Shown in pieces: positions 29,764-43,165 of a DNA stretch of 64,000 nucleotides. How positions within the stretch are numbered: the stretch's first letter is position 1; every line of letters begins with the position of its first letter. Below the pieces are notes generated by a model. That model made no database searches, was not told the origin of the DNA, and saw only the letters and a list, made by a program, of their open reading frames with translations. The translations under genes and the position numbers were made by a program. Source of the stretch: Heterobasidion occidentale (Eukaryota; Basidiomycota; Agaricomycetes; Russulales; Bondarzewiaceae); assembly GCA_039111635.1 (NCBI GenBank), contig JBCAQO010000009.1:2103650-2167649 (forward strand). Reading direction: 5' to 3'.

Positions 29764-30113
29764 CAATTGTTAGAAATTGTCAGAAATTGTCAGAAATTGT
29801 TGTCATAAGTCAACAAATTCCAGCCAACATGAACATCTCTCACCATATATTCCCTCAAATTGTTGGCAATTGTTGGCATTTCTAAAGAATGCTGTATTTC
29901 CTCTGTGTCATTTTCAATTGTTCAGAGTTCAATTATTCTTAATTGTTGGCATTTGTCCACAATTGCCAGCAATCCACACATAAAAATAGATTGCCAGCAA
30001 TTGTTGTTAATTGACAGCTTGAATGAGGACAGGAATTGTCAACAATTGCTAACAATTGCCAACAAATCACAGCAATTGCCGACAAATCACAACAATTGCC
30101 AACAATTGCCAGC
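29764..30113. repeat. CAATTG-rich degenerate repeat block
   Basis: AT-rich stretch with about ten CAATTG hexamers (for example at 29764, 29867, 29915, 29960, 29999, 30043, 30053, 30073, 30093, 30103) and many AATTGT half-sites, often as TTGGCAATTG or CAATTGCCAA. Because CAATTG is its own reverse complement, the block is rich in small inverted repeats. It ends just before the first LTR fragment. Confidence 0.7.
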
Positions 30114-30119
30114 TATAGC

Positions 30120-30203
30120 TGTTACAAACTGCTCGTTTAGTAACCCAAGAGTAACAGGTTCTTCCTTAGATCGCACGATGGACTGAGTGGTGGACGAAGT
30201 CTC
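30120..30203 (-). repeat. reverse-oriented family A LTR fragment
   Basis: 84 bp matching the reverse complement of the last part of the family A LTR (compare 30755-30841). It begins TGTTACAAACTGCTCG and stops where the 5' LTR of element A begins. This is a remnant of an older, oppositely oriented copy. Confidence 0.8.
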
Positions 30204-30841
30204 TGTTATGACTTGACCGATCGGGGCCCTTCGCGGCCGGTCTAACCGATGGATCAAGCATCACATGCTTAGGCGTGCTCACACACTACGGAGCGTGTAC
30301 ACCAAGGTATTCGGCATGTCCTTAGGAGCCGACAAGACCGATGGTTCTTCAAGACATCGGTAAAGGCTATATTGGAGGGACACGAGGCTCACAGAGTTCA
30401 CACAGTAATGAGAGGCGTTATTCACATGCCATGGGCTTAGGGCTTACGGGTAAGCACCTCGTCGCACCATGATGGATCAGTGCGACTGGAGAAGTACAAG
30501 AGTAGAGCGCCGGCTGAGAGAGACGGCGGCCACAGCTCTCCTAGGATGGAAACCTGGAGAAGCACACGGACTCTTACCTATACCCTATACAGTATATAAG
30601 GCCCATAGAATAGGCTGATAGGATCTTCAGTCTATTCTCTTCGTTCATTCGTCTATATTTGAATACGAACCTCTTCGTTCCCCTGTATCTACGCATTAAC
30701 AGGATTCTTAGAGCCAATCACTATTTCCCTCCTGTATCATCGCATGATACAGTCGAGACTTCGCCCACCACTAAGTCCATTTGTGCGACCTAGGGGAAGA
30801 ACCTGTTACTCTTGGGTTACTGAACGAGCAGTTCATAAACA
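30204..30841 (+). repeat. 5' LTR of element A
   Basis: Begins TGTTATGACTTGACC and ends TTCATAAACA (TG..CA). Promoter-like TATATAAG at 30593. Compared with the 3' LTR it has about 16 extra bases as small insertions. Confidence 0.92.
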
Positions 30842-31312
30842 CTAGAATAGACTCGCTTTTGCCCCTACCTTGCACCACACTCTGCTTGCTGCCACACTCT
30901 TTCTCACAACCCTCATCGGTGGCATAGACCCCACCGAAGAGAGTTACTTCACACACCCTGGAGCAAGACCTAGGCCTAGGATTTCCACCAGGCACTAGAC
31001 GAACCCATAACACCAACTTCGACAGAACAATCGTCCTATCCATCAAAGAGGAAACCGCTGGTATTACTCCGACACCAATCGACCAGCACCCCCAACTTTG
31101 ATAACTGCTAATCCGAGAAGGACGATACTTCTTCACAAAGAGAAGACGGAACAGAAAGCTGAGGTCGGCTTGGGACGAAACAGCAGAAGACTGGGTAGAG
31201 CCACCCCAATACAGGAACCCCAAACGGAAATCCCGGACACATCGGAGGAAGAAGAAGGAACATCCGAGTCCGAATCCTCGGATATTCAACACCGATCAAC
31301 ACCCGAAACATT

Positions 31313-32529
31313 ATGTCAAATCCTACAGACCCCCGTCTCGTCGGGAAGGGCAAGCTCAAACTCCCTGATAACTTCGAAGGGGACCGAACACAATCACAGA
31401 AATTCATCATGAATTGCCTCATCCTTTTTACAACAGAATCGGACCGATACAAGACGGACACAGATAAAGTTTCCCTCGCTCTCTCGTGTGCAAGATACGG
31501 GACGGGCGGCGTTCTATGGGCAGAGAGCTTCCTAAAGAAGACAGTAGGGGCGACCTGCCCAAAGACCGTAGGAACTTGGGACGACTTCCTTGTCAGGTTT
31601 AAACTCCAGTTCAAAAGAAACGAACCTCACGGACCAAGGCCCGAAGCGCCCTCATGTCTTTCTCTCAGGGGAAGATGACGGTGGATGAATATTCAAATCA
31701 ATTCATCCTTATCGCCGCCGACGCCGACATCACCGATAAAGAACAGGTTCCTATTTCCAGAGAGGGCTTGACCCGAGGGTCATGGACAAAATCTATGACA
31801 AGGAAACTCCGCCGAAGGACACGATCCAAGACTGGGTCAACACTGCCTGTGAAATAGAATAGACGCCTAAGAGCCCGAAGTGCTCAAAAGGCGATCCTCG
31901 CCAACTCCACCTCATTCCGAAGCGACTTCCTCAATCGCTTCCACCTCCAACCCGCTCGTCGTTATAACTCTACCACCGCTCCTCGCAGAATGAACAACCA
32001 GGTGGTTGACATGGATATTGATGCCTCTCGCAAAAGAAACGCCGATCAGAACAAGCGTGTATACGATAGCAAGAGACCCGCTCCCTTTTCCTGCTACAAT
32101 TGCGGAAAACCAGGGCACGGGATAGCTGATTGTCGTTCCCCTCGTAGAGGCGTTCCCCCGTCTCGAGGAAATTCGCGCAAGTCGGTGGGCAGAGGAGGTA
32201 GACGAACTCGCGCTGCAGACATGGAGGATGAAGATGAGCAAGAACCCCCGGTGGAAGACGATGCGCGACTACATCGAGGACTGGAGGAGGGGAGTTCTCA
32301 TGGCCACCACCGTCGGGTACCACAACCTGGTAATTCGGTGGAATGTGAGGACCCTTCCGCGAGAAGGGGAGGATCACGCCAGAGCAATGGAGAGCGCTAC
32401 GTACCGCCTAACGGACGACGAGGAAATAGACCCGTCAGTGATACTAATGGCGTCCGAGCGCTCTTCCAAGAAGTAGGGAAGGCGGAGGCAAAGAAGATGT
32501 TGGTGGATCTGGCAGAGGATTTTTCCTGA
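31313..32529 (+). pseudogene. element A gag remnant with CCHC zinc knuckle
   Basis: Capsid-type protein in at least three frames. MSNPTDPRLVGKGKLKLPDN opens at 31313; the frame changes near 31630 (continuing as ALMSFSQGKMTVDEYSNQF) and again near 31752 (FQRGLDPRVMDKIYD). A later frame (31990-32529) holds the nucleic-acid-binding knuckle CYNCGKPGHGIADC. The frame changes make this copy non-functional as read. Confidence 0.8.
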
Positions 32530-32606
32530 CCTCTCCTTCACCAGCCAAAGAGAGAGGGTCGAGGAAACTCGAGTATGATTCCCCGTCATATATTCGAATC
32601 GGAGCA

Positions 32607-35101
32607 ATGAACAGTCACATTATTACCCCCATTCGACTTGACGTGCGGTTGACAACTCGAGGAAGAAGCGCTGGAGCCAGAGCCGCCATCGACTCAGCAT
32701 GTGAAGGGATCCTGGTAAATGAAGAGTGGGTACGGAAGCACAATCTCCCCACCTATCCTTTAAACCGCCCCATCCACGTTCGCAACGTCGATGACACCAT
32801 CAACAAAGCGGGCCTCATTCGACGAGGCCTAGACGCGAATCTCACCGTCAAGGATAGACGAGGGAGAACTCACACTGAACGCGTCCAGATGTTCATCACC
32901 AATCTAGGGAAAGACGACATGCTCCTAGGAACGGATTGGTTGAAATACCACGACCCCTCCATCGGGTGGAGGCGCCGTGAAGTACACTTTGATCGTTGCC
33001 CCAGAGATTGCCAACAACCATATGGGTTTACCAAGGCAAGGGAAGAGCCTACCAAGAAGGCATGGCTAGCGAAACTACGAGGTGACAAGGTTTCTCAGCG
33101 GACGAAACCGCATCTTGTCTCAGAACCGGTAGGACCTTCGTGGACTTGGACTAAAGAACAATGGAGCCAAGTACCCGCGAAGGAATGGAAAACTCGGTTC
33201 ATGGAACTACTCGAGCACAAATCCCGACAACGTAAGGCTCGGAAGTGGCTCGAAGAGCAAGTAGCCGAAAGGAAGGAACACCGGCAAGCCCAACAAGAGG
33301 CAGCCCAGGGCGAAGCTTCAGGAAAAGTCGCTGAAAAAGCGCAAACACAGTTTGACCCCTCCGCAATGGATAGCGCAGGGGAACCCGTCATCAGGAAGGT
33401 GGCTCCAGAACCCTTGGGGTTTGCAAGCTTTGACGAAGATCTAGAGGAAGAAATCGACACCACCGACTTGAAGAGTCGGGTGCCGACAGAGTACCATTCC
33501 TACCTCGACATCTTTAGCGAACAACGATCGCAAAGGCTTCCCCAACATACAATATGGGACCACGCGATAAATCTTAAACCATCCTTTGTACCCCAGGCCC
33601 CGCGGATATTTCCTCTAAGCCCGGAAAAGCATGATGAGTTAGGGAAGTTCGTCAAGGAGCACCTTTCCAAAGGAACAATACGTCGGTCAACAGCACACAG
33701 CGCGGCCTCTTCTTTTTTGTAAGCAAGAAAGATGGGAAGCTCCGTCCGGTACAAGACTATCGCCACCTTAACGAACACACCATTCGAGATGTCACCCCCC
33801 TGCCATTAATCCAAGAACTATTGGATATTATTAAAGGCGCAACCGTGTTCTCGAAACTCGATGTTCGGTGGGGATATAACAACGTGCGCATCAAAAAGGG
33901 AGACGAATCCAAAGCGGCCTTCGTCACACCCTTAGGGCTTTTCGAACCTACCGTAATGTTCTTCGGACTTTGCAATTCTCCGGGAACCTTCCAAGCCATG
34001 ATGAACATGATCTTCCAGGAACTCATCTTGGCCCGGAAAATAGCGGTATATATGGACGACATCCTCATCTTCACGAAAACCACAGCAGAACATATTGTGA
34101 TTCTTCGACGAGTCCTCCAAATCCTACGCGACAACGATCTTTACCTCAAACCAGAGAAGTGCGAATTTCACAAAGAGAAGTTAAACTACCTCGGATACAC
34201 GATCTCAAAAGACCACGTCGCTATGGAAGACTCGAAGGTTGAAGCTATCCAGGAATGGCCCATCCCGCGCACAGTGCGCGACATCCGCTCTTTCTTAGGT
34301 TTAGGGAACTTCTACCGACGATTCATTGACAAGTTCTCCTTGATCGCTCGGCCCCTACACGACCTCACGAAGAAAGATACGAAATGGGACTGGACCATGG
34401 AGTGCCAACAAGCATTTGATCGATTGAAGAAGGCCTTCATCAGTCAACCCGTCCTGTTATACCCTGACCCGATGCGCCCCTACCGGCTTGTTACCGACGC
34501 TTCACTCGCAGCATACGGTGCAGTTCTCTTACAGGAAGGACCTGATAACGACTGGCACCCTGTTGCATACCTCTCCGGATCGTTTGCACCGGCCGAACGA
34601 AATTACGACGTACATGATCGCGAACTCCTCGCCATCATCAAGGTGCTGGAACACTGGAAGCATTACCTCAAAGGCGCTCGACACCCCTTTGAGGTCTGGA
34701 CGGACCATAAGAACCTAGAACACTTTCAAACGGCGCGCGACCTGTCAAGGCGACAAGCACGCTGGAGTCTGTTCTTGTCTCGATTTGATTTCCGGCTCAG
34801 CTACAAAGCTGGAACTACTAATCACGCCGATGCTCTGTCCAGGCGTCCAGACCTTAGTAAGGGGGTGGAATCTGATAACAAGGCACAGACTCTACTCCCA
34901 TCCAGACTTTTCACCGAGTCCAGCGAAACTCTGGTAGAGCCAAGCGAAGGCATACACGTCAAAGCAACGGAACTCGTATCCTCGGACATCCTCTCCCTTA
35001 TTCGACACTCGCGCTCGGAACACGATTTACTAGTTGACGTCGCTCTCAAGAAATTGCTGGAAAAAGGACCAAACGCAATGAAGGGCGACCTAGGAAAATA
35101 G
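32607..35101 (+). pseudogene. element A pol: protease, reverse transcriptase, RNase H
   Basis: Retropepsin-like AAIDSACEGIL (Asp codon at 32691) and LLGTDWLKYHD; RT with DYRHLNEHTIRD, FCGLCNSPGTFQAM-type block, catalytic YMDDILIFTK near 34050 and FLGLGNFYRRFI; RNase H with VTDASLAAYGAVL, NYDVHDRELLAI and WTDHKNL; end of RNase H at HADALSRRPD. One base is missing from a T run near 33716, shifting the frame between SSF and VSKKDGKLRPV. A TAG at 35099 replaces the Trp kept in the sister fragment at 41096-43165. Otherwise open. Confidence 0.93.
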
Positions 35102-36460
35102 ACACATGAAGAGGGCATCACAAGACGCGACGGTTACATATGTGTTCCAAAGGACAACCTCCTCCGACGAACAATTGTCAAAACACACCATGACACTATG
35201 GCTACAGGACACCCAGGCCGAGCAAAGACCTTGGAATTGGTACAGCGCCATTACTGGTGGTCAAGCATGACCAAATTTGTACACGCATATGTGGATGGAT
35301 GTGCAGTCTGCCAATCTACCAAGAACCTTCCTCATAGGACCCACCCACCTATCCAACCGCTGGAAACCACAAACATCCCTTGGCGCTTTATCTCCACCGA
35401 CTTCGTGACAGACCTCCCGGAAAGCAGAGGCTATGACTCGATCAACGTGGTGGTCGATCAAGGCCTGTCAAAAGGAATAGTCATAACCCCGTGCAAAAAG
35501 ACAATTACGGCCGAAGAAACCACGACGCTCTTCCAAGACAATGTGTTCAAACGATACGGACTACCAACCAAGGTGGTGTCCGACAGAGGTCCTCAATTTG
35601 CGGCAAAGTTCACAAGGGAACTATGGAAAGGAATGGGAATTACCCCTGCCCTCAGCACGGCTTACCACCCCCAAACGGACGGAGAAACAGAACGGGTAAA
35701 CCAAGAGATCGAGCAATTCCTGCAAGTATTCTGCAACTACCATCAAGATAACTGGGTAGACTTGATCCCCTTCGCAGAATTCTCCCACAATACCCGAAGA
35801 CACTCCGCCACTGGGAAGTCGCCCTTTGAAGTCCTTTATGGGTTCAATCCACCATATTCGGTCGACTCGGCTCTGGAGACCAAAGTGCCCGCAGTAACTG
35901 AACATTTGCAGCTAATCAAAGAAGTCCAAGAAGATGCGGCCGCAAGTCTACAAATAGCAGCGCAGCACGCCAAGGACCGGGACCTGAACAGGAAACTCCC
36001 ACAGTGGGAAGTAGGAACCCAAGTTTGGTTAGAAGGGACCCACATTCGGACGACTCACCCGAAATTCAAGTTGGCACCTCGACGCTATGGCCCCTTTTCA
36101 GTGACCGAAAGAATCGGTCCACTAGCTTATCGGTTGGAAATACCCGAAACGTGGAAGATACACCCGGTGTTTCATGCCTCCATCCTCACAGAATATCATG
36201 AGACAGAGGCCCACGGAAGGAACTTCCCCAGACCTGCCCCAGAGATCTTGAATGAAGAAGAGCACTACGAAGTGGAGGCCATTCTAGATTCAAGACGCCA
36301 GGGACGAGGAACCAAATATCTTGTCAAGTGGGTCGGATACTCCGAGGCCGATAACACTTGGGAACCCTTTGCCCTCCTCAAAGACACGGCCGACGAGGCG
36401 CTTCGTGAGTTCCACGAAAGCTACCCAGACAAACCCCGACCTGCGGCGATTAAGCTTTAG
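35102..36460 (+). CDS. element A integrase with chromodomain
   Basis: Follows the TAG at 35099 in the same frame. Zinc-binding HHCC region (HHDTMATGHPG, then DGCAVCQSTK), catalytic DDE core (ISTDFVTDLPES; VVSDRGPQF; DGETERVNQE), GPF-type block RRYGPFSV, and a C-terminal chromodomain YEVEAILDSR .. YLVKWVGYSEADNTWEP around 36270-36370. The chromodomain is known to steer integration to marked chromatin in chromoviruses. The frame ends shortly after it (AAIKL). Confidence 0.93.
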   Translation, partial: THEEGITRRDGYICVPKDNLLRRTIVKTHHDTMATGHPGRAKTLELVQRHYWWSSMTKFVHAYVDGCAVCQSTKNLPHRTHPPIQPLETTNIPWRFISTDFVTDLPESRGYDSINVVVDQGLSKGIVITPCKKTITAEETTTLFQDNVFKRYGLPTKVVSDRGPQFAAKFTRELWKGMGITPALSTAYHPQTDGETERVNQEIEQFLQVFCNYHQDNWVDLIPFAEFSHNTRRHSATGKSPFEVLYGFNPPYSVDSALETKVPAVTEHLQLIKEVQEDAAASLQIAAQHAKDRDLNRKLPQWEVGTQVWLEGTHIRTTHPKFKLAPRRYGPFSVTERIGPLAYRLEIPETWKIHPVFHASILTEYHETEAHGRNFPRPAPEILNEEEHYEVEAILDSRRQGRGTKYLVKWVGYSEADNTWEPFALLKDTADEALREFHESYPDKPRPAAIKL

Positions 36461-36520
36461 GAAGATATAAAAAGGAGAGAGACCCCCCTCCTTTCGGAAA
36501 GCAAGAATCCTCTCCAGTAC

Positions 36521-37897
36521 ATGTCCGACCACTCCTCCCTTGATTACTCCCCTGGACGTGCCATGCTCATCGATGATGGAACCACCTCCTCCCCTTCAAG
36601 AAACCCCTCGCCAGACATCATTCTGGCCATGGCCAACCCCGACACTGGACGCCCTAGCCGAAGCAGCCGCCCAACGACTCCAGGGGGAGTCCCCGTACAA
36701 ATCAGTGTCCACCAAACCGCGCTCACCGTCGAAGATCGAACGGGTTCCCGAGCCTCACCACGGTTTGAGAGAGCTCATGACGAGCACGATGAAGGACGTC
36801 AAGCGGAAGGAAGGCATGCTCCGTCAACGCCTCCGCGACCGACGTCAGCGTTGGCTCAAGGAGACGCAAGGCAGGAAACGAGAGGCGGAAGAAGACCAGG
36901 AAACCCTTCGGACCTGGCATCGCCTACAACTGTTGAGGCAGGTGTACAAGAACCAGCAACGGCTGGTACATCAGCTGCCAGGACCAGAGGGCCCCCTACC
37001 AGTAGTCGAGATCTGCACCCCGGAGAGTTGGAAGGACTAGGAGACGCTCTACTCCAGCGCACCACCATCTCCGCGGTAATTCAGATGGCCACAGCGCTGG
37101 CCTTACAAAGGCTCGCTAACTTCTTCGCAGGGCAACCAGGAAGCGAGAGCGACGACATACCCCGACACCTCGCTGACGCAAGCGACCAGGTCAGGCTTCT
37201 GGCCTATGCAGATGATCATAGGGCCGCCTCCTGGTACGCCCGAGGAAATAATGGGGCTTACGCCCTACTCATTCATCCGGACGAGTTCTCCTCCTTCATC
37301 AATCTGGAGCTCCTACCCGCCCTCATCTCGCGCACCGACGCAAGATACTCCTCCCACGCCCATCCCGTTCGGACTGACCCATTCCGCGTCCAGCCATGGA
37401 GCGAAGCTAGCAGAGCGATACCGGCTACAAGTAGTCGAGACGCATCCACCCAGACCGAATACGTCTGGGCTACGGTCCGACGACAGGCACACAGGGACCG
37501 AGAGGCCCTTCCTCCCATATCGGCAGGACAATCCACCGGGCAGGACGCAGGAGGCAGCAATGAGGAGCACCCTCCAAGGTACAGGAGGAATGAGGGACGA
37601 GGGAGCCAGAGAACAAGGGCAACCCTTCAACCCAGGCGAAGCAGTCCTAGAAGAACTCGACCAAGAGATTTGCCGACTCCAAACCGTCCTCGAGATAATC
37701 GAGTTGAAGGAGCGCATCCTCACATTGGTAGAAGAACTCCAGTCCGCCAGCGCCCGACTCAGCGGACTACTTCCTGGACTCGAGCGGAACTAGACGCCTG
37801 GGACGAGGTCGAAGGCGATAATTACGACGACATCGACCCCTACTACAGACCAGACGAAGGGTACGGAGACTACGGAGACATTGGTGGAGGATATTAG
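36521..37897 (+). CDS. element A extra ORF downstream of integrase
   Basis: 458 codons, unrecognised. Begins MSDHSSLDYSPG, is Pro/Arg/Ser-rich, has a more ordered middle (ISAVIQMATALALQRLANFF; LIHPDEFSSFINLELLPALI) and an acidic tyrosine-rich end (DDIDPYYRPDEGYGDYGD). It lies in the same frame as the integrase, 60 bp after its stop. Element B has an ORF at the same place that also starts MS and contains LDYSP, so this is a shared accessory gene rather than chance. Function unknown. Confidence 0.6.
   Translation: MSDHSSLDYSPGRAMLIDDGTTSSPSRNPSPDIILAMANPDTGRPSRSSRPTTPGGVPVQISVHQTALTVEDRTGSRASPRFERAHDEHDEGRQAEGRHAPSTPPRPTSALAQGDARQETRGGRRPGNPSDLASPTTVEAGVQEPATAGTSAARTRGPPTSSRDLHPGELEGLGDALLQRTTISAVIQMATALALQRLANFFAGQPGSESDDIPRHLADASDQVRLLAYADDHRAASWYARGNNGAYALLIHPDEFSSFINLELLPALISRTDARYSSHAHPVRTDPFRVQPWSEASRAIPATSSRDASTQTEYVWATVRRQAHRDREALPPISAGQSTGQDAGGSNEEHPPRYRRNEGRGSQRTRATLQPRRSSPRRTRPRDLPTPNRPRDNRVEGAHPHIGRRTPVRQRPTQRTTSWTRAELDAWDEVEGDNYDDIDPYYRPDEGYGDYGDIGGGY
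36540..37793 (+). other. second, overlapping reading frame inside the extra ORF
   Basis: A different frame of the same stretch is open at 36540-37040 (166 codons, with a charged helical part around MKDVKRKEGMLRQRLRDRR) and at 37206-37793 (195 codons, ending in a helical EELDQEICRLQTVLEI region). Both parts look more protein-like locally than the overlying frame. Either the region is dual-coding or paired indels have moved segments between frames. Confidence 0.45.
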
Positions 37898-37970
37898 ACA
37901 AGGTGACGGAGAGGAAAGGACCCTCCGCACCACAGATACCGGTTTCACGCACAGGACACCGGAACGAACG

Positions 37971-39652
37971 TCCTGCATGACGTTAAACTGTGAAAAGATA
38001 AGAAGGCAGGGGAAGTACCTGACCATTTCGCATTGCAGCCCTCCGGTCTCAAGATGAAGGACAAGCATTCAACACTCTCGTTATCAAGAGGTATTCTAAC
38101 AAGCGAATCGGGCGTCCCGCTTGGATCCCCAGTTTTACAGGGCCCTTTCCGCATTAGGAGGCCCTTAGGATTCACAACATAACTGATACGTGAATGATGC
38201 ATGAATATTGGTGGGAAATCGTGATGCATACCCGCCGCTGGGGAACGGTGGATAAACCTCGCTGTCAAGGTCTGACAGGTGTCTTGGACGTCCCACTTTG
38301 GATCTCCGGTTTTACAGGGTCGTTTCCGCATTAGGGGACCCTATCTGCGATGCAGGAACTGATGGCCGCACTCCATTAGTACCCAAAACGGAGAAATTAC
38401 ATCCGCAACGATGTAAAACTACGAAAGGCTTGGTCCGCAATGACGATAAACTAGTTACCGTCCGGAACGACGCTAAAGCTACCAAGACCCTCGGAGCGTG
38501 GTTGCATTCTGGCAGACGGTGGAAGTGAGGGCCTCCACCGTTGCAAAACCCTGCCGACTAGGTCGAGGCGCTTCCATATTCCATACGCCCTACAGTAAAA
38601 GAATATGGGGTCGACACGGTTCAATTCCGTGCGAGGGGTTTGGGGACGTGGAGCGGGTTGTCACCCTTCCGACAAGGCCACGACTACTCCATGGCGCGCC
38701 CACTCTACCCTTGAAGTCCGAAGCAAGGATTCCACTTCAAGGGCCAGTCGAGAGGCAACTGGGATCGTGCCTCGTGTTTGCGATCATCCGCAACGATGTA
38801 AAACTACGCCCTCCATGGCGTTAAACTGGGACTACCCTTTCATTACAGGGTCATGAGCAGTGTTCAAACATGAGATATGTTTTGTCATTGCTGCGTCCGC
38901 AAAGACGTTAAACTACCACTCCTTTCAGCATAGGAGATGTCGATCGACATCGTTGTTGACGCCACGATGTTGATCTAGTCCGCAATGACGATAAACTATT
39001 ATCCCTCGTCCTAGGGATCGTATTGGAGCTGGAATTACCGCTTCCAGCTGCAATAGTCCGCAATGACGGTAAACTACTTACTCCTTCAAGTATAGGAGTC
39101 GTGGTTGATGGTCACGACCTTGACCATCAACTAGTCCGAAATGACCTTAAACTACCCTCACCCCGGAGGATTAGAATCTATCGAGGCTCGGGAGGTTCAA
39201 GCCAGGCGATAGCGGACGTCCGCAATGACTATAAACTAGTTGCCGTCCTTCATGACGATAAACTGAGCTGCCCTTCTGTCTACAGGGCCATGTGAGTTGT
39301 GTCAAAATAGGCTTAAGGTCTATTCTCGCAACTCTATAAGTTATCTGGTTTGATATAGTATAAACCGTCACCATCTTGCCTCAATGGGAACCCTGTCAAG
39401 AAGGAGGAACTGGTCTACGGCCCTATGCGCATCACCGATGAATGTTCCGGCGCGCAGAAACGCCTGCTGTCTTGTTTACAGGTACTCCTACGTTGGGAGA
39501 TGGATAGGTCCGCAACGACCTTGGCATAAACTAGTAGGGCAGTCCGCAACGACTTATGTATAAACTAGCCTCAGTCCGCAACGACTTAAGGATAAACTAG
39601 CGGACGTCCGCAAAGACGTAAAACTACGGACGTCCGGCACGACGTTAAAACT
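37971..39652 (+). repeat. array of about 17 dispersed TCCGCAAYGAC..TAAACTA motifs
   Basis: A 20-25 nt motif recurs through the non-coding tail of element A, always on the plus strand. Copies start at about 37971, 38402, 38434, 38461, 38787, 38896, 38979, 39057, 39135, 39219, 39246, 39509, 39543, 39574, 39607 and 39632, plus a partial one near 38812. The fixed parts are TCCGCAA, GAC and TAAACTA; the centre varies by 0-5 nt. Spacing is irregular (about 25-300 nt), so it is not a simple tandem repeat. Position in the long 3' untranslated part of the element suggests an RNA or packaging role, but none is known to me. Confidence 0.8.
38111..38340 (+). repeat. direct duplication of about 50 bp in the element A tail
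   Basis: Two similar copies, near 38111-38165 and 38287-38340, share GTTTTACAGGG and TTTCCGCATTAGG. Non-coding. Confidence 0.65.
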
Positions 39653-40473
39653 ACCAGGACATACCTTACGCTGACCCCGCATAATTACCGTCAAGGTGGA
39701 TACCATGGTCTATCCAAGAGACCATGGGGTTCAAAGTCTATTCTTCAAAGTCCTTACCTCGTGTCCAATACCCTTAGTGAAAAACAAACTCTGGACGAAC
39801 ACTCAATCTCTAACCTGACAAGGCCACCGTATGGGGCTGACAGAGTTAGGGATCTTCAAAGGGGTCTTGCCGGACTCAAAACAAGTCAAGAAAATGTCGT
39901 ATTCTTGATAGGTTGGTGGGCCTAAGCCTTAGTAAAGCGATCAACCCACACACCTGGAGTCCCCCTCGATACCGGAGATCAAGGAGATGAAGATCTATCC
40001 TGGAAACACTGAGACATGGCCTTCGGCACTTTGGAAGAAGAACGACACACACCTTCTATCCACAGACGAGTTTCTATTTCATCCTATAATCATTCGCACA
40101 ACACCTTTCTGCATCGTTGCCAGATGACACTGGCTCATCAAACCTACCAGGGAGCCCTGGTCGAGTAGCTGCCTATTGACTCTAGGAGTGTACTCACACA
40201 AAACGTGCGGTGAAGGAAGAACACCGGGAGAAGGGACAGGGTATTGTGGCTATGCCCCGAACTTCAAATCAAACAGCTCAACGGAGAAGGAAAACTCCTA
40301 GGCGTTGTAAACGACGTAGGTCGGTCTCCGCCCCAGAAAACGAAGTGATATTGGGAAGACGCATCCCAATCTATTTTGACGACCACAAAGCAATTGTCCG
40401 TGGAATGACGATGAAGCTCGTTTCTGCTCAAGCGAGTAGTCCCCTCAGGAGTTGGGACCTAGAAAGGGGGTAA

Positions 40474-41095
40474 TGTTATGACTTGACCGATCGGGGCCCT
40501 TCGCGGCCGGTCTAACCGATGGATCAAGCATCACATGCTAGGCGGCTCCACTACGGAGCGTACATCAAGGTATTCGGCATGTCCTTAGGAGCCGACAAGA
40601 CCGATGGTTCTTCAAGACATCGGTAAAGGCTATATTGGAGGGACACGAGGCTCACAGAGTTCACACAGTAATGAGAGGCGTATTCACATGCCATGGGCTT
40701 AGGGCTTACGGGTAAGCACCTCGTCGCACCATGATGGATCAGTGCGACTGGAGAAGTACAAGAGTAGGCGCCGGCTGAGAGAGACGGCGACCACAGCTCT
40801 CCTAGGATGGAAACCTGGAGAAGCACACGGACTCTTACCCTATACCCTATACAGTATATAAGGCCCATAGAATAGGCTGAGGATCTTCAGTCTATTCTCT
40901 TCGTTCATTCGTATCTTCGAATACGAACCTCTTCGTTCCCCTGTATCTACGCATACAGGATTCTTAGAGCCAATCATTATTTCCCTCCTGTATCATCGCC
41001 TGATACAGTCGAGACTTCGCCCACCACTCAGTCCATTTGTGCGACCTAGGGAAGAACCTGTTACTCTTGGGTTACTGAACGAGCAGTTCATAACA
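40474..41095 (+). repeat. 3' LTR of element A
   Basis: 622 bp, TGTTATGACTTGACC to TTCATAACA. Preceded by the polypurine tract AGAAAGGGGG at about 40461-40470. Directly followed by reverse-strand integrase sequence. Confidence 0.92.
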
Positions 41096-43165
41096 TGCAT
41101 CTTCTTGGACTTCCTTGATTAGCTGTAAATGTTTGGTCACTGTGGGCACCTTGGTCTCTAGTGCTGAGTCGACCAAATATGGCGGATTGAACCCATAAAG
41201 GACTTCAAACAGTGATTTCCCTGTGGCGGAGTGTCTTCGGGTGTTATGGGCAAATTCCGCGAAGGGAATCAAGTCTACCCAGTTATCTTGGTGGTAGTTG
41301 CAAAATACCCACAGAAATTGATCGATTTCCTGGTTAACCCGTTCCATTTCTCCGTCCATCTGGGGATGATAAGCCGTGCTGAGGGCAGGAGTGATTCCCC
41401 ATCCTTTCCATAGTTCTCACGTGAACTTTGCCACAAATTGGGGGCCTCTATCGGATGCCACCTTGGTCGGCAGACCATATCATTTAAAGATGTTGTCCTG
41501 GAAGAGCGTCGTAGTTTCTTCGGCCGTGATTGTCTTCTTACATGGAGTTATGACTATCCCTTTAGACAGGCCCTGGTCAACCACCACGTTTATCAAGTCG
41601 TATCCTCTGCTTTCCGGGAGGTCTGTTATGAAGTTGGTGGAGATGAAACATGAAGGGGCGTTCATGGTTTCCAATGGTTGAATCAGTGGATGGGTCCTGT
41701 GGGGTAGGTTCTTGGTGGACTGGCAAATTGCGCATCCATCCACGTATTGATGGACGAATTTGGTCATGCTCGACCACCAATAATGGTGTTGTACCAATTC
41801 CAAGGTCTTTCCTCAACCTTGGTGTCCTGTAGCCATGGTGTCGTGGTGTGTCCTGACAATCATTTGCCGGAGGAGGTCATCTTTTAGGATGCATACGTAG
41901 CCATCGCGTCTTGTGATGCCATCTTCATGTGTCCACTTTCCTAGGTCACCCTTCATTGCTTTTGGTCCTTTTTCTAGCAATTTCTTGAGGGCGACATCGA
42001 CTAGCAAATCGTGTTCTGAACACGAGTGTTGAATGAGGGTAAGGATGTCCGAGGATATGAGTTCTGTTGCTTTGACGTGTATGCCTTCGCTTGATTCCAC
42101 AAATGATTTGCTTTCTTGTCCACGTTTGACTGGATTTGAATCTACCAGAGTTTCACTGGACTCAGTGAAAAGTTTGGACGGGAGCAGAGTCTGTGCCTTG
42201 TTATCAGATTCCACCCCCCCACTAAGGTCTGGACGCCTGGACAGAGCATCAGCATGGTTGGTTGTTCCTGCTTTGTAACTGAGCTGGAAGTCAAACTTGA
42301 ACAAAAGCAGACTCTAGCGCGCTTGTCGCCTTGATAGGTCCCGCGCAGTTTGAAAGTAAACCAGGTTCTTGTGGTCCGTCCAGACCTCAAAGGGGTGTCT
42401 AGTGCCTTCAAGGTAGTGTTTCCAGTGTTCTAGTGCCTTGATGATTGCAAGGAGTTCGTAATCGTGTACGTCGTAATTCCGTTCGGGGGATGAAAACAAT
42501 CCTGAGAGGTAGGCAACTAGGTGCCAGTCGTTATCAGGTCCTTCCTGTAAGAGGACTGCACCATATGCAGAGAGGGAGGTGTTGGTGACAAGCCGGTAGG
42601 GACATATCGGATCAGGGTATAGTAGGACGGGTTGACTGATGAAGGCTTTCTTCAATCGGTCAAAGGCCTGTTGGCAGTCCGCGGTCCAGTCCCATTTCAT
42701 GTCTTTCTTAGTGAGATTGTGCAGGGGATGAGCAATTAAGGAAAACTTGTCAATGAATCACCAATAAAAGTTCCCTAGACCTAAGAAAGAGCGGATGTCA
42801 TGGACTGTGCAAGGAATTGGCCATTTCTGAATGGCTTCAATCTTCAAATCCTCCATAGCGACGTGGTCTTTTGAAATTGTGTATCCCAAGTAGTTTAGCT
42901 TGTCCTTATGGAACTCGCATTTCTCTGGTTGAGGTAGAGATCGTTGTCGCGTAGAATTTGGAGGACTTGTTGAACAACCACAATATGTTCTGCTGCGGTT
43001 TTCGTGAAGATGAGGATGTTGTCCATGTATACTGTGATTTTCTAGGCGAGGATGAGATCTTGGAAGATCATGTTCATCATGGCCTGGAAAGTTGCTGGGG
43101 AGTTAGTGAGCCCAAAGAACATTACTGTAGGTTCAAAGAGCCCCAAGGGCGTTACAAAGGCTGCC
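41096..43165 (-). pseudogene. reverse-strand family A pol fragment (IN, RNase H, part of RT)
   Basis: Reads on the minus strand in one frame: partial RT (YMDNILIFT, with the second catalytic Asp changed to Asn), RNase H (LVTNTSLSAYGAVL) and integrase (HHYWWSSMTKFVHQYVDGC; AYHPQMDGEMERVNQE) with several in-frame stops but no frame shift. Compared with element A, the changes are mostly of the kind C to T or G to A (T to M, S to L, R to H, V to I, D to N, R to stop). It breaks exactly at the element A 3' LTR on one side and at the element B 5' LTR on the other. Confidence 0.9.

Follow-up and report, generated by a model that had tools for sequence, protein, structure and literature searches.

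A putative array of coremin-type Xrn1-resistant RNAs in the non-coding tail of a Heterobasidion chromovirus

Element A, an LTR retrotransposon in the 64,000-nucleotide stretch of Heterobasidion occidentale DNA analysed here ("the window"), carries 17 same-strand copies of a motif of 20-25 nt each between its last open reading frame (ORF) and its 3' LTR. The question raised by this locus is what these units are, and what they do in the RNA of the element.

The first-pass annotation of the window had described about 17 copies in the tail of a chromovirus, on one strand only, with fixed ends, a variable centre and irregular spacing. All of this is borne out. A loose regular expression finds 16 sites on the forward strand at 37971-39653 and a second one adds the site at 38809, giving 17; a repeat search also shows both 38460 and the 38806 family. 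Fourteen units have a centre of 2-3 nt and the three starting at 39509, 39543 and 39575 one of 7 nt; the spacing varies from 22 to 431 nt. The loose expression has one reverse-strand match inside the array region, which is taken as chance, and five forward and seven reverse matches scattered over the window outside the array. In 48 tails of the same family it gives 705 sense matches and a single antisense one.

Organization of element A

Element A is a chromovirus, that is, a Ty3/gypsy element with a chromodomain. Reverse transcriptase, RNase H, integrase and chromodomain are all present between its LTRs (Table 1), the Pfam matches of pol being RVT_1, RT_RNaseH, rve, Integrase_H2C2, SH3_Tf2-1 and Chromo. 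The third ORF, ORF3, has no Pfam match. It has nine homologues, six of them named as Heterobasidion, and the named relatives of both the integrase and ORF3 are basidiomycetes, for example Dentipellis, Trametes and Heterobasidion. When 19 other copies are compared with the window, second codon positions are the least changed in the first two of three parts of ORF3 (8% versus 13-19%) and third codon positions the most changed in the last two (19 and 34%). Frame-breaking indels are present in ORF3 in several of these copies. Overlapping it in another frame is a 195-codon ORF (37206-37793) with a Leu-rich, coiled-coil-like end, which is regarded as a candidate only.

The tail extends for 2.6 kb from the stop codon of ORF3 to the 3' LTR and holds the motif array. 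It also contains a further pair of repeats, at 38110-38165 and 38286-38342 (57 columns, 84% identity), distinct from the motif units. The host genome comprises 45 Mb in 159 contigs.

Table 1. Positions of element A and of the units and hairpins in its tail (window coordinates; hp1 and hp2, first and second hairpin; MFE, minimum-free-energy fold)
Feature	Position	Strand	Description
5' LTR, element A	30204..30838	+	96.2% identity with 40474-41093
pol (RT/RNase H, integrase, SH3_Tf2-1, chromodomain)	33821..36460	+	ORFs 33821-35101 and 35198-36460
ORF3, conserved Arg-rich protein, final ORF upstream of tail	36521..37897	+	homologues, codon-position bias
Non-coding tail, ORF3 to 3' LTR	37898..40473	+	no ORF of at least 150 aa
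Unit 1, class B	37971..37990	+	loop CUGCAU, end UAAACUG
Unit 2, degenerate	38402..38421	+	loop CGCAAC, AAAACUA
Putative coremin unit 3	38433..38472	+	hp1 and spacer 38433-38453, loop CGCAAU; hp2 38459-38472 (hp1 of unit 4); consensus match
Unit 4, degenerate	38461..38481	+	loop CGGAAC, UAAAGCUA
Unit 5, degenerate	38787..38806	+	loop CGCAAC, AAAACUA
Unit 6, class B	38809..38828	+	GCC/GGC stem, loop CUCCAU, UAAACUG
Putative coremin unit 7	38895..38936	+	38895-38915, loop CGCAAA; hp2 38919-38936; consensus match; MFE gives both hairpins
Third (long) hairpin, units 7/8 interval	38942..38975	+	
Putative coremin unit 8	38978..39018	+	38978-38998, loop CGCAAU; hp2 39001-39018; consensus match, fold
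Third (long) hairpin, units 8/9 interval	39021..39055	+	
Putative coremin unit 9	39056..39099	+	39056-39076, loop CGCAAU; hp2 39080-39099; consensus match; MFE gives hp2 and a shifted hp1
Third (long) hairpin, units 9/10 interval	39104..39131	+	pairs altered on both sides among copies
Putative coremin unit 10	39134..39169	+	39134-39154, loop CGAAAU; hp2 39156-39169; consensus match, fold
Putative coremin unit 11	39218..39257	+	39218-39238, loop CGCAAU; hp2 39244-39257 (hp1 of unit 12); consensus match; isolated MFE without hp1
Unit 12, class B	39246..39265	+	loop CUUCAU, UAAACUG
Unit 13	39509..39533	+	loop CGCAAC, 7-nt centre
Unit 14	39543..39567	+	loop CGCAAC, 7-nt centre
Unit 15	39575..39599	+	loop CGCAAC, 7-nt centre
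Unit 16	39607..39626	+	loop CGCAAA fits; spacer NNAAAACUA deviates
Unit 17	39633..39653	+	loop CGGCAC, UAAAACUA
3' LTR, element A	40474..41093	+	96.2% identity with 5' LTR

Likeness of the units to coremin

The candidate roles listed in the first-pass annotation did not include the likely one, an Xrn1-resistant RNA. Coremin (also called xrRNA-C) is such an RNA, found in plant, fungal and other RNA viruses, where it stalls the 5'-3' exoribonuclease Xrn1. According to PMC10520033, it is composed of a hairpin, hp1, a conserved spacer NNUAAACUA ending in UAAACUA, and a second hairpin, hp2, which needs structure only. Mutagenesis described there led to the hexaloop rule YGNNAD; the loops CGCAAU and CGAAAU stall yeast Xrn1, and CGCAAU is reported in four viruses. 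For the searches this outside consensus was written as GTCYGNNADGACNNTAAACTA.

The consensus has six sites in the window, all inside the array, compared with none in 100 shuffles, and 1,089 sites in the genome, compared with none for the reversed pattern. Among the 48 family tails there are 226 sense matches and no antisense match. Coremin likewise depends on its orientation, the antisense form failing in yeast (PMC5869530). The loops of five of the six full-match window units are CGCAAU or CGAAAU. Each of the six is followed within 5 nt by an hp2 of 4-6 bp, which in two of them is the hp1 of the next unit.

Taken separately, an hp1 stem of at least 3 bp is present in all 16 units found by the loose expression in the window and in 663 of the 711 units in the 48 tails, a YGNNAD loop in 7 of 16 and 320 of 711 (CGCAAC and CUNCAU being unfit), and the spacer NNUAAACUA in 6 of 16 and 291 of 711. 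Stem, loop and spacer occur together in 228 of the 711 units, and the others fail in this respect. An hp2 of at least 4 bp within 8 nt follows 209 of these 228 units and 323 of the other 483; this test is soft, because the same rule is satisfied at 1,337 (46%) of 2,880 positions drawn at random from sequence downstream of the array.

Six of the 17 window units thus carry the full consensus and 11 are variants. Seven have loops ending in C, three of them combined with a 7-nt centre. The loop CGAAAC failed to stall Xrn1 in the test context of PMC10520033, whose authors also note natural chrysovirus motifs with C. The 7-nt centres of units 13-15 are longer than the published spacer. Folded in isolation, only three of the six full-match units form both hairpins in the MFE structure, and most energy z-scores are unremarkable. 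The hp2 of unit 3 has 4 bp, and the isolated MFE fold of this unit differs from the coremin fold. Two pairs in the hp2 of unit 7 have both partners altered, each pair in a single copy out of 33 distinct ones. The four stretches separating units 6 to 10 contain two additional hairpins each, some pairs of which are altered on both sides among copies.

Units 1, 6 and 12 (37971, 38809 and 39246) constitute a separate class, B, in which a CUNCAU loop goes together with a UAAACUG end. Over the 711 units, the second loop base and the last spacer base are G and A in 558 and U and G in 122, with six exceptions; a further 25 units have A at the second loop position. This covariation hints at a tertiary contact between the loop and the end of the spacer, although the independent events may number one to three, because class B sits at three paralogous positions only. 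Unit 1 was dropped as a coremin, since its bases pair within a larger hairpin in the alignment fold, of which it is probably a part.

A tetraloop form of coremin occurs at one genome site, and its reversed control also has one match. In locus L040 one unit (C1:277944-277962) has the tetraloop form; it appears to be unit 7 minus two loop bases when set beside a sister copy.

Comparison of 30000-42000 with Rfam at gathering scores gave no match, and at relaxed scores the three weak matches in 37850-39700 (E 1.4 to 4.9) were taken as chance. H/ACA-box, integron and preQ1-like readings were dropped in favour of coremin. The identification is based on the sequence match, the covariation in hp1, hp2, the orientation, and the conservation and presence across the examined copies described below. 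The motif is thus judged, with good though not complete confidence, to be a coremin-type Xrn1-resistant RNA with a hexaloop, and the tail to be an array of such RNAs at which host Xrn1 would stall, leaving stable 3' non-coding RNAs (ncRNAs).

Conservation of the array among copies of the family

Two exact patterns of the motif have 453 and 877 matches in the host genome, and the reversed patterns have none, which excludes a chance origin. Forty-eight tails were aligned, 29 chosen by similarity to the tail in the window and 19 by motif matches. Only loci with both a tail start and an LTR entered the alignment, which excluded L013, L040 and L053 among others; a duplicate start in L045 was also omitted. 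The pairwise divergence of the tails has a median of 7% and a maximum of 31%. Every tail has between 8 and 19 units (711 in total), and none of the 48, chosen as they were by tail or motif similarity, lacks a full match to the published consensus. Because of this choice, copies were also picked by their integrase. Of 950 candidates 100 were scored, and for 16 of these the tail would be located on contig C1 or in the listed part of contig C2. Motif matches lie at the expected place in 15 of the 16; the sixteenth copy is cut off within ORF3, where it is joined to the end of a second copy in inverted orientation.

L017 has two opposed tails, the second of which is partial, and L048 and L058 have two opposed tails each. 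L209, an old, decayed relative of the tail, is 69% identical over 219 nt. It carries a run of nine degenerate units spaced 26-43 nt apart, and many G and C have been replaced by A and T, a pattern like that of RIP-like or CpG decay.

The hp1 stem, in which GTC and GAC pair around the six-base loop, shows compensating changes. In the 17 window units 85.7% of the cells are paired and four of the five pairs are altered on both sides. The covariation score was reached by none of 500 shuffles and was far lower in controls with slid partners; the number of additional pair types is unremarkable, 108 of 500 shuffles reaching it. The outer two pairs are not formed in 5 and 7 of the 17 units. The inner four pairs are formed in 87, 98, 90 and 70% of 214 distinct instances. 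Fold scores of the alignment are not extreme throughout the array. A pairing partner for the loop and spacer was sought within the element, where TAGTTTA is absent and TTGCGGA occurs only once. Some 310 nt before the 3' LTR, the segment 40098-40160 has an alignment fold z of -11; its covariation is weak on realignment, and no claim is made for it as a structured element.

The diversity in transversions among tails is 0.016 in the motif columns compared with 0.033 between units, and only 14 of 1,682 shifts of the motif mask give a value as low. Among the positions least variable in transversions are the first two loop bases, C and G, and AAACUA; among the most variable are the two central bases and bases 4-5 upstream. 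The loop C and G show no deficit of transitions (0.056 and 0.068, compared with 0.060 between units), perhaps because these bases form CpG. Gaps are not rarer in the motifs (0.064 versus 0.047 between units), because whole units come and go. The proposal in the first-pass annotation that the units are kept for a purpose is supported by the array in other copies and by the conservation of TCCG...TAAACTA above its surroundings, as judged by transversions. The two outcomes that it had named as counting against this proposal, absence of the array elsewhere and neutral divergence of TCCGCAA and TAAACTA, are not what was found: the array is shared and the motif is conserved.

The same annotation had also argued against simple tandem slippage and had allowed that units might spread individually. 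The irregular spacing is borne out, but the first point was put too strongly, since units also duplicate in tandem. Locus L056 has three units at a spacing of 24 nt, four units at a spacing of 35 nt begin at C2:1809004, and the linker that divides 38979 from 39057 in the window occurs 14 times across the 48 tails. Duplication therefore contributes to the arrays. Individual spread finds no support, because all 50 exact matches on contig C1 fall into 11 same-strand clusters, with several units in each of these stretches and no isolated match; a mobile mini-element was rejected for the same reason.

Proposed role and relation to known systems

By analogy with published work on the same motif, the units of the array would stall Xrn1. 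The transcript of the element would be decapped and then digested in the 5'-3' direction by host Xrn1, which would halt just before hp1 at the first well-folded unit. What would remain are stable 3'-coterminal ncRNAs, very roughly 1.7-2.5 kb long, that start where the enzyme stalled and end in the 3' LTR. Downstream units would act as back-ups where earlier ones are bypassed, so that escape of Xrn1 from so many units would be unlikely. The host genome has two loci with XRN_N matches, as expected for Xrn1 and Rat1. The stable RNAs could hold Xrn1 at the RNA of the element or weaken silencing, as is reported for the ncRNA3 of a beet virus (PMC5086608), and we infer that the element may benefit from them.

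Loop and spacer are both conserved, the copies are many and a conserved Arg-rich protein is encoded just upstream, as might be found if the units were a binding array for Gag, the ORF3 protein or a host RNA-binding protein, serving packaging or export, with the match to coremin a result of convergence or of a shared ligand. For coremin itself a recognition role beyond the stalling of Xrn enzymes is suspected (PMC5869530). A binding array would not, however, predict a match to the consensus for Xrn1 stalling, nor hp2 in 209 of 228 units, and is considered unlikely. A main action of the array on ribosomes, in which it would stop scanning or readthrough past ORF3 or damp translation of the tail RNAs, is more unlikely still. 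Coremin does block scanning ribosomes in vitro (PMC10520033), but the array lies 3' of all ORFs of at least 150 aa in the element, where scanning ribosomes are not expected, and 17 copies seem more than such a function would need. The long hairpins of 11-14 bp between units could suggest substrates or targets of small-RNA silencing; the hp1 and hp2 stems of 3-7 bp are, however, short for Dicer and the spacer, which is unpaired, ranks with the best-conserved parts, which together makes this explanation highly improbable. Plant LTR elements have hypervariable tandem repeats between pol and the 3' LTR, and neutral repeats of that type would agree with the 8 to 19 units per tail, the occasional tandem duplicates and motif columns no poorer in gaps, but the position-specific constraint, the covariation and the agreement with a consensus derived elsewhere leave them hardly any probability. 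A coding explanation for the units was dropped, since no ORF of at least 150 aa covers them and the phage matches described next fall in all three phases of their frames.

In phage contigs the motif occurs as TCCGCAAYGAC-NN-TAAACTA, with exactly two central bases, in 66 of 72 matches, compared with 2 of 43 for the reversed control. Distinct sites lie outside ORFs of at least 80 aa in 48 of 55 cases (3 of 30 control sites), and at 36 of the 55 distinct viral sites a Shine-Dalgarno-like site and a start codon follow within 400 nt. With one genome taken per prokaryote species, all 23 motif stretches are labelled Bacillota (19) or CPR bacteria (4), and 17 of 22 distinct bacterial sites are outside ORFs of at least 80 aa. 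The motif is thus possibly a coremin-like element in bacterial mRNAs. RNase J occurs widely in Bacillota and is not known from E. coli. As a candidate reading, the distribution in Bacillota and phages is what would be expected if the motif resists RNase J. We tentatively suggest, at somewhat less than even confidence, that coremin is an anti-exonuclease RNA used across domains. The fungal family would stack it into arrays that trap Xrn1 and yield a ladder of stable ncRNAs. In phages, Bacillota and CPR bacteria the same 18 fixed bases, with exactly two central nucleotides, would lie in intergenic leaders and tails of mRNAs, and RNase J would there take the place of Xrn1.

The unit patterns of the tail itself, scanned in phages among the viral contigs, gave six weak records and added nothing. 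The tetraloop coremin pattern GTCCGAAGACNNTAAACTA occurs in nine viral contigs, compared with two for its reversed control; in these nine contexts it is followed by repeats of the GAGACAC...AACTG type, possibly another hairpin array.

If the coremin reading is correct, exonuclease-resistant RNAs extend beyond RNA viruses to a reverse-transcribing element, whose kind relies in yeast on the mRNA decay machinery of the host, LTR elements gain a direct molecular handle on Xrn1, and the long non-coding tail is explained. A new class of stable fungal ncRNAs would be predicted, and hundreds of natural variants would be at hand for mapping coremin. To our knowledge this would be the largest coremin array. 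Among the papers listed in a search of mostly open-access literature, none described a natural xrRNA from an LTR element. Coremin was without a solved structure when PMC10520033 was written.

The 3' repeats of plant LTR elements occupy the same place as the array, from pol to the 3' LTR, and we know of no conserved RNA element in them. The LTR elements Ty1 and Ty3 also make use of Xrn1, as is proposed here. Yeast Xrn1 promotes Ty elements and does not restrict them (PMC5053509), and the RNA of Ty3 travels through P-bodies, where assembly requires Xrn1 (PMC4589538); the accessible portions of these two papers mention no xrRNA. Hexaloop coremins with CGCAAU or CGAAAU loops are described in PMC10520033 for umbra-, enamo-, tombus-like, noda-like, hypo- and chrysoviruses, some of them fungal and some with repeats. 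Those are RNA viruses, whereas the present family is one of retrotransposons with 8-19 units in each of 48 tails. The coremin of BNYVV, as presented in PMC10520033, shares with the units of element A the GUC/GAC stem of hp1, the spacer NNUAAACUA, the downstream hp2, the location in a non-coding 3' region and the sense-only orientation. It has a tetraloop and is a single motif in an RNA virus, whereas element A has hexaloops arranged as an array in an LTR retrotransposon.
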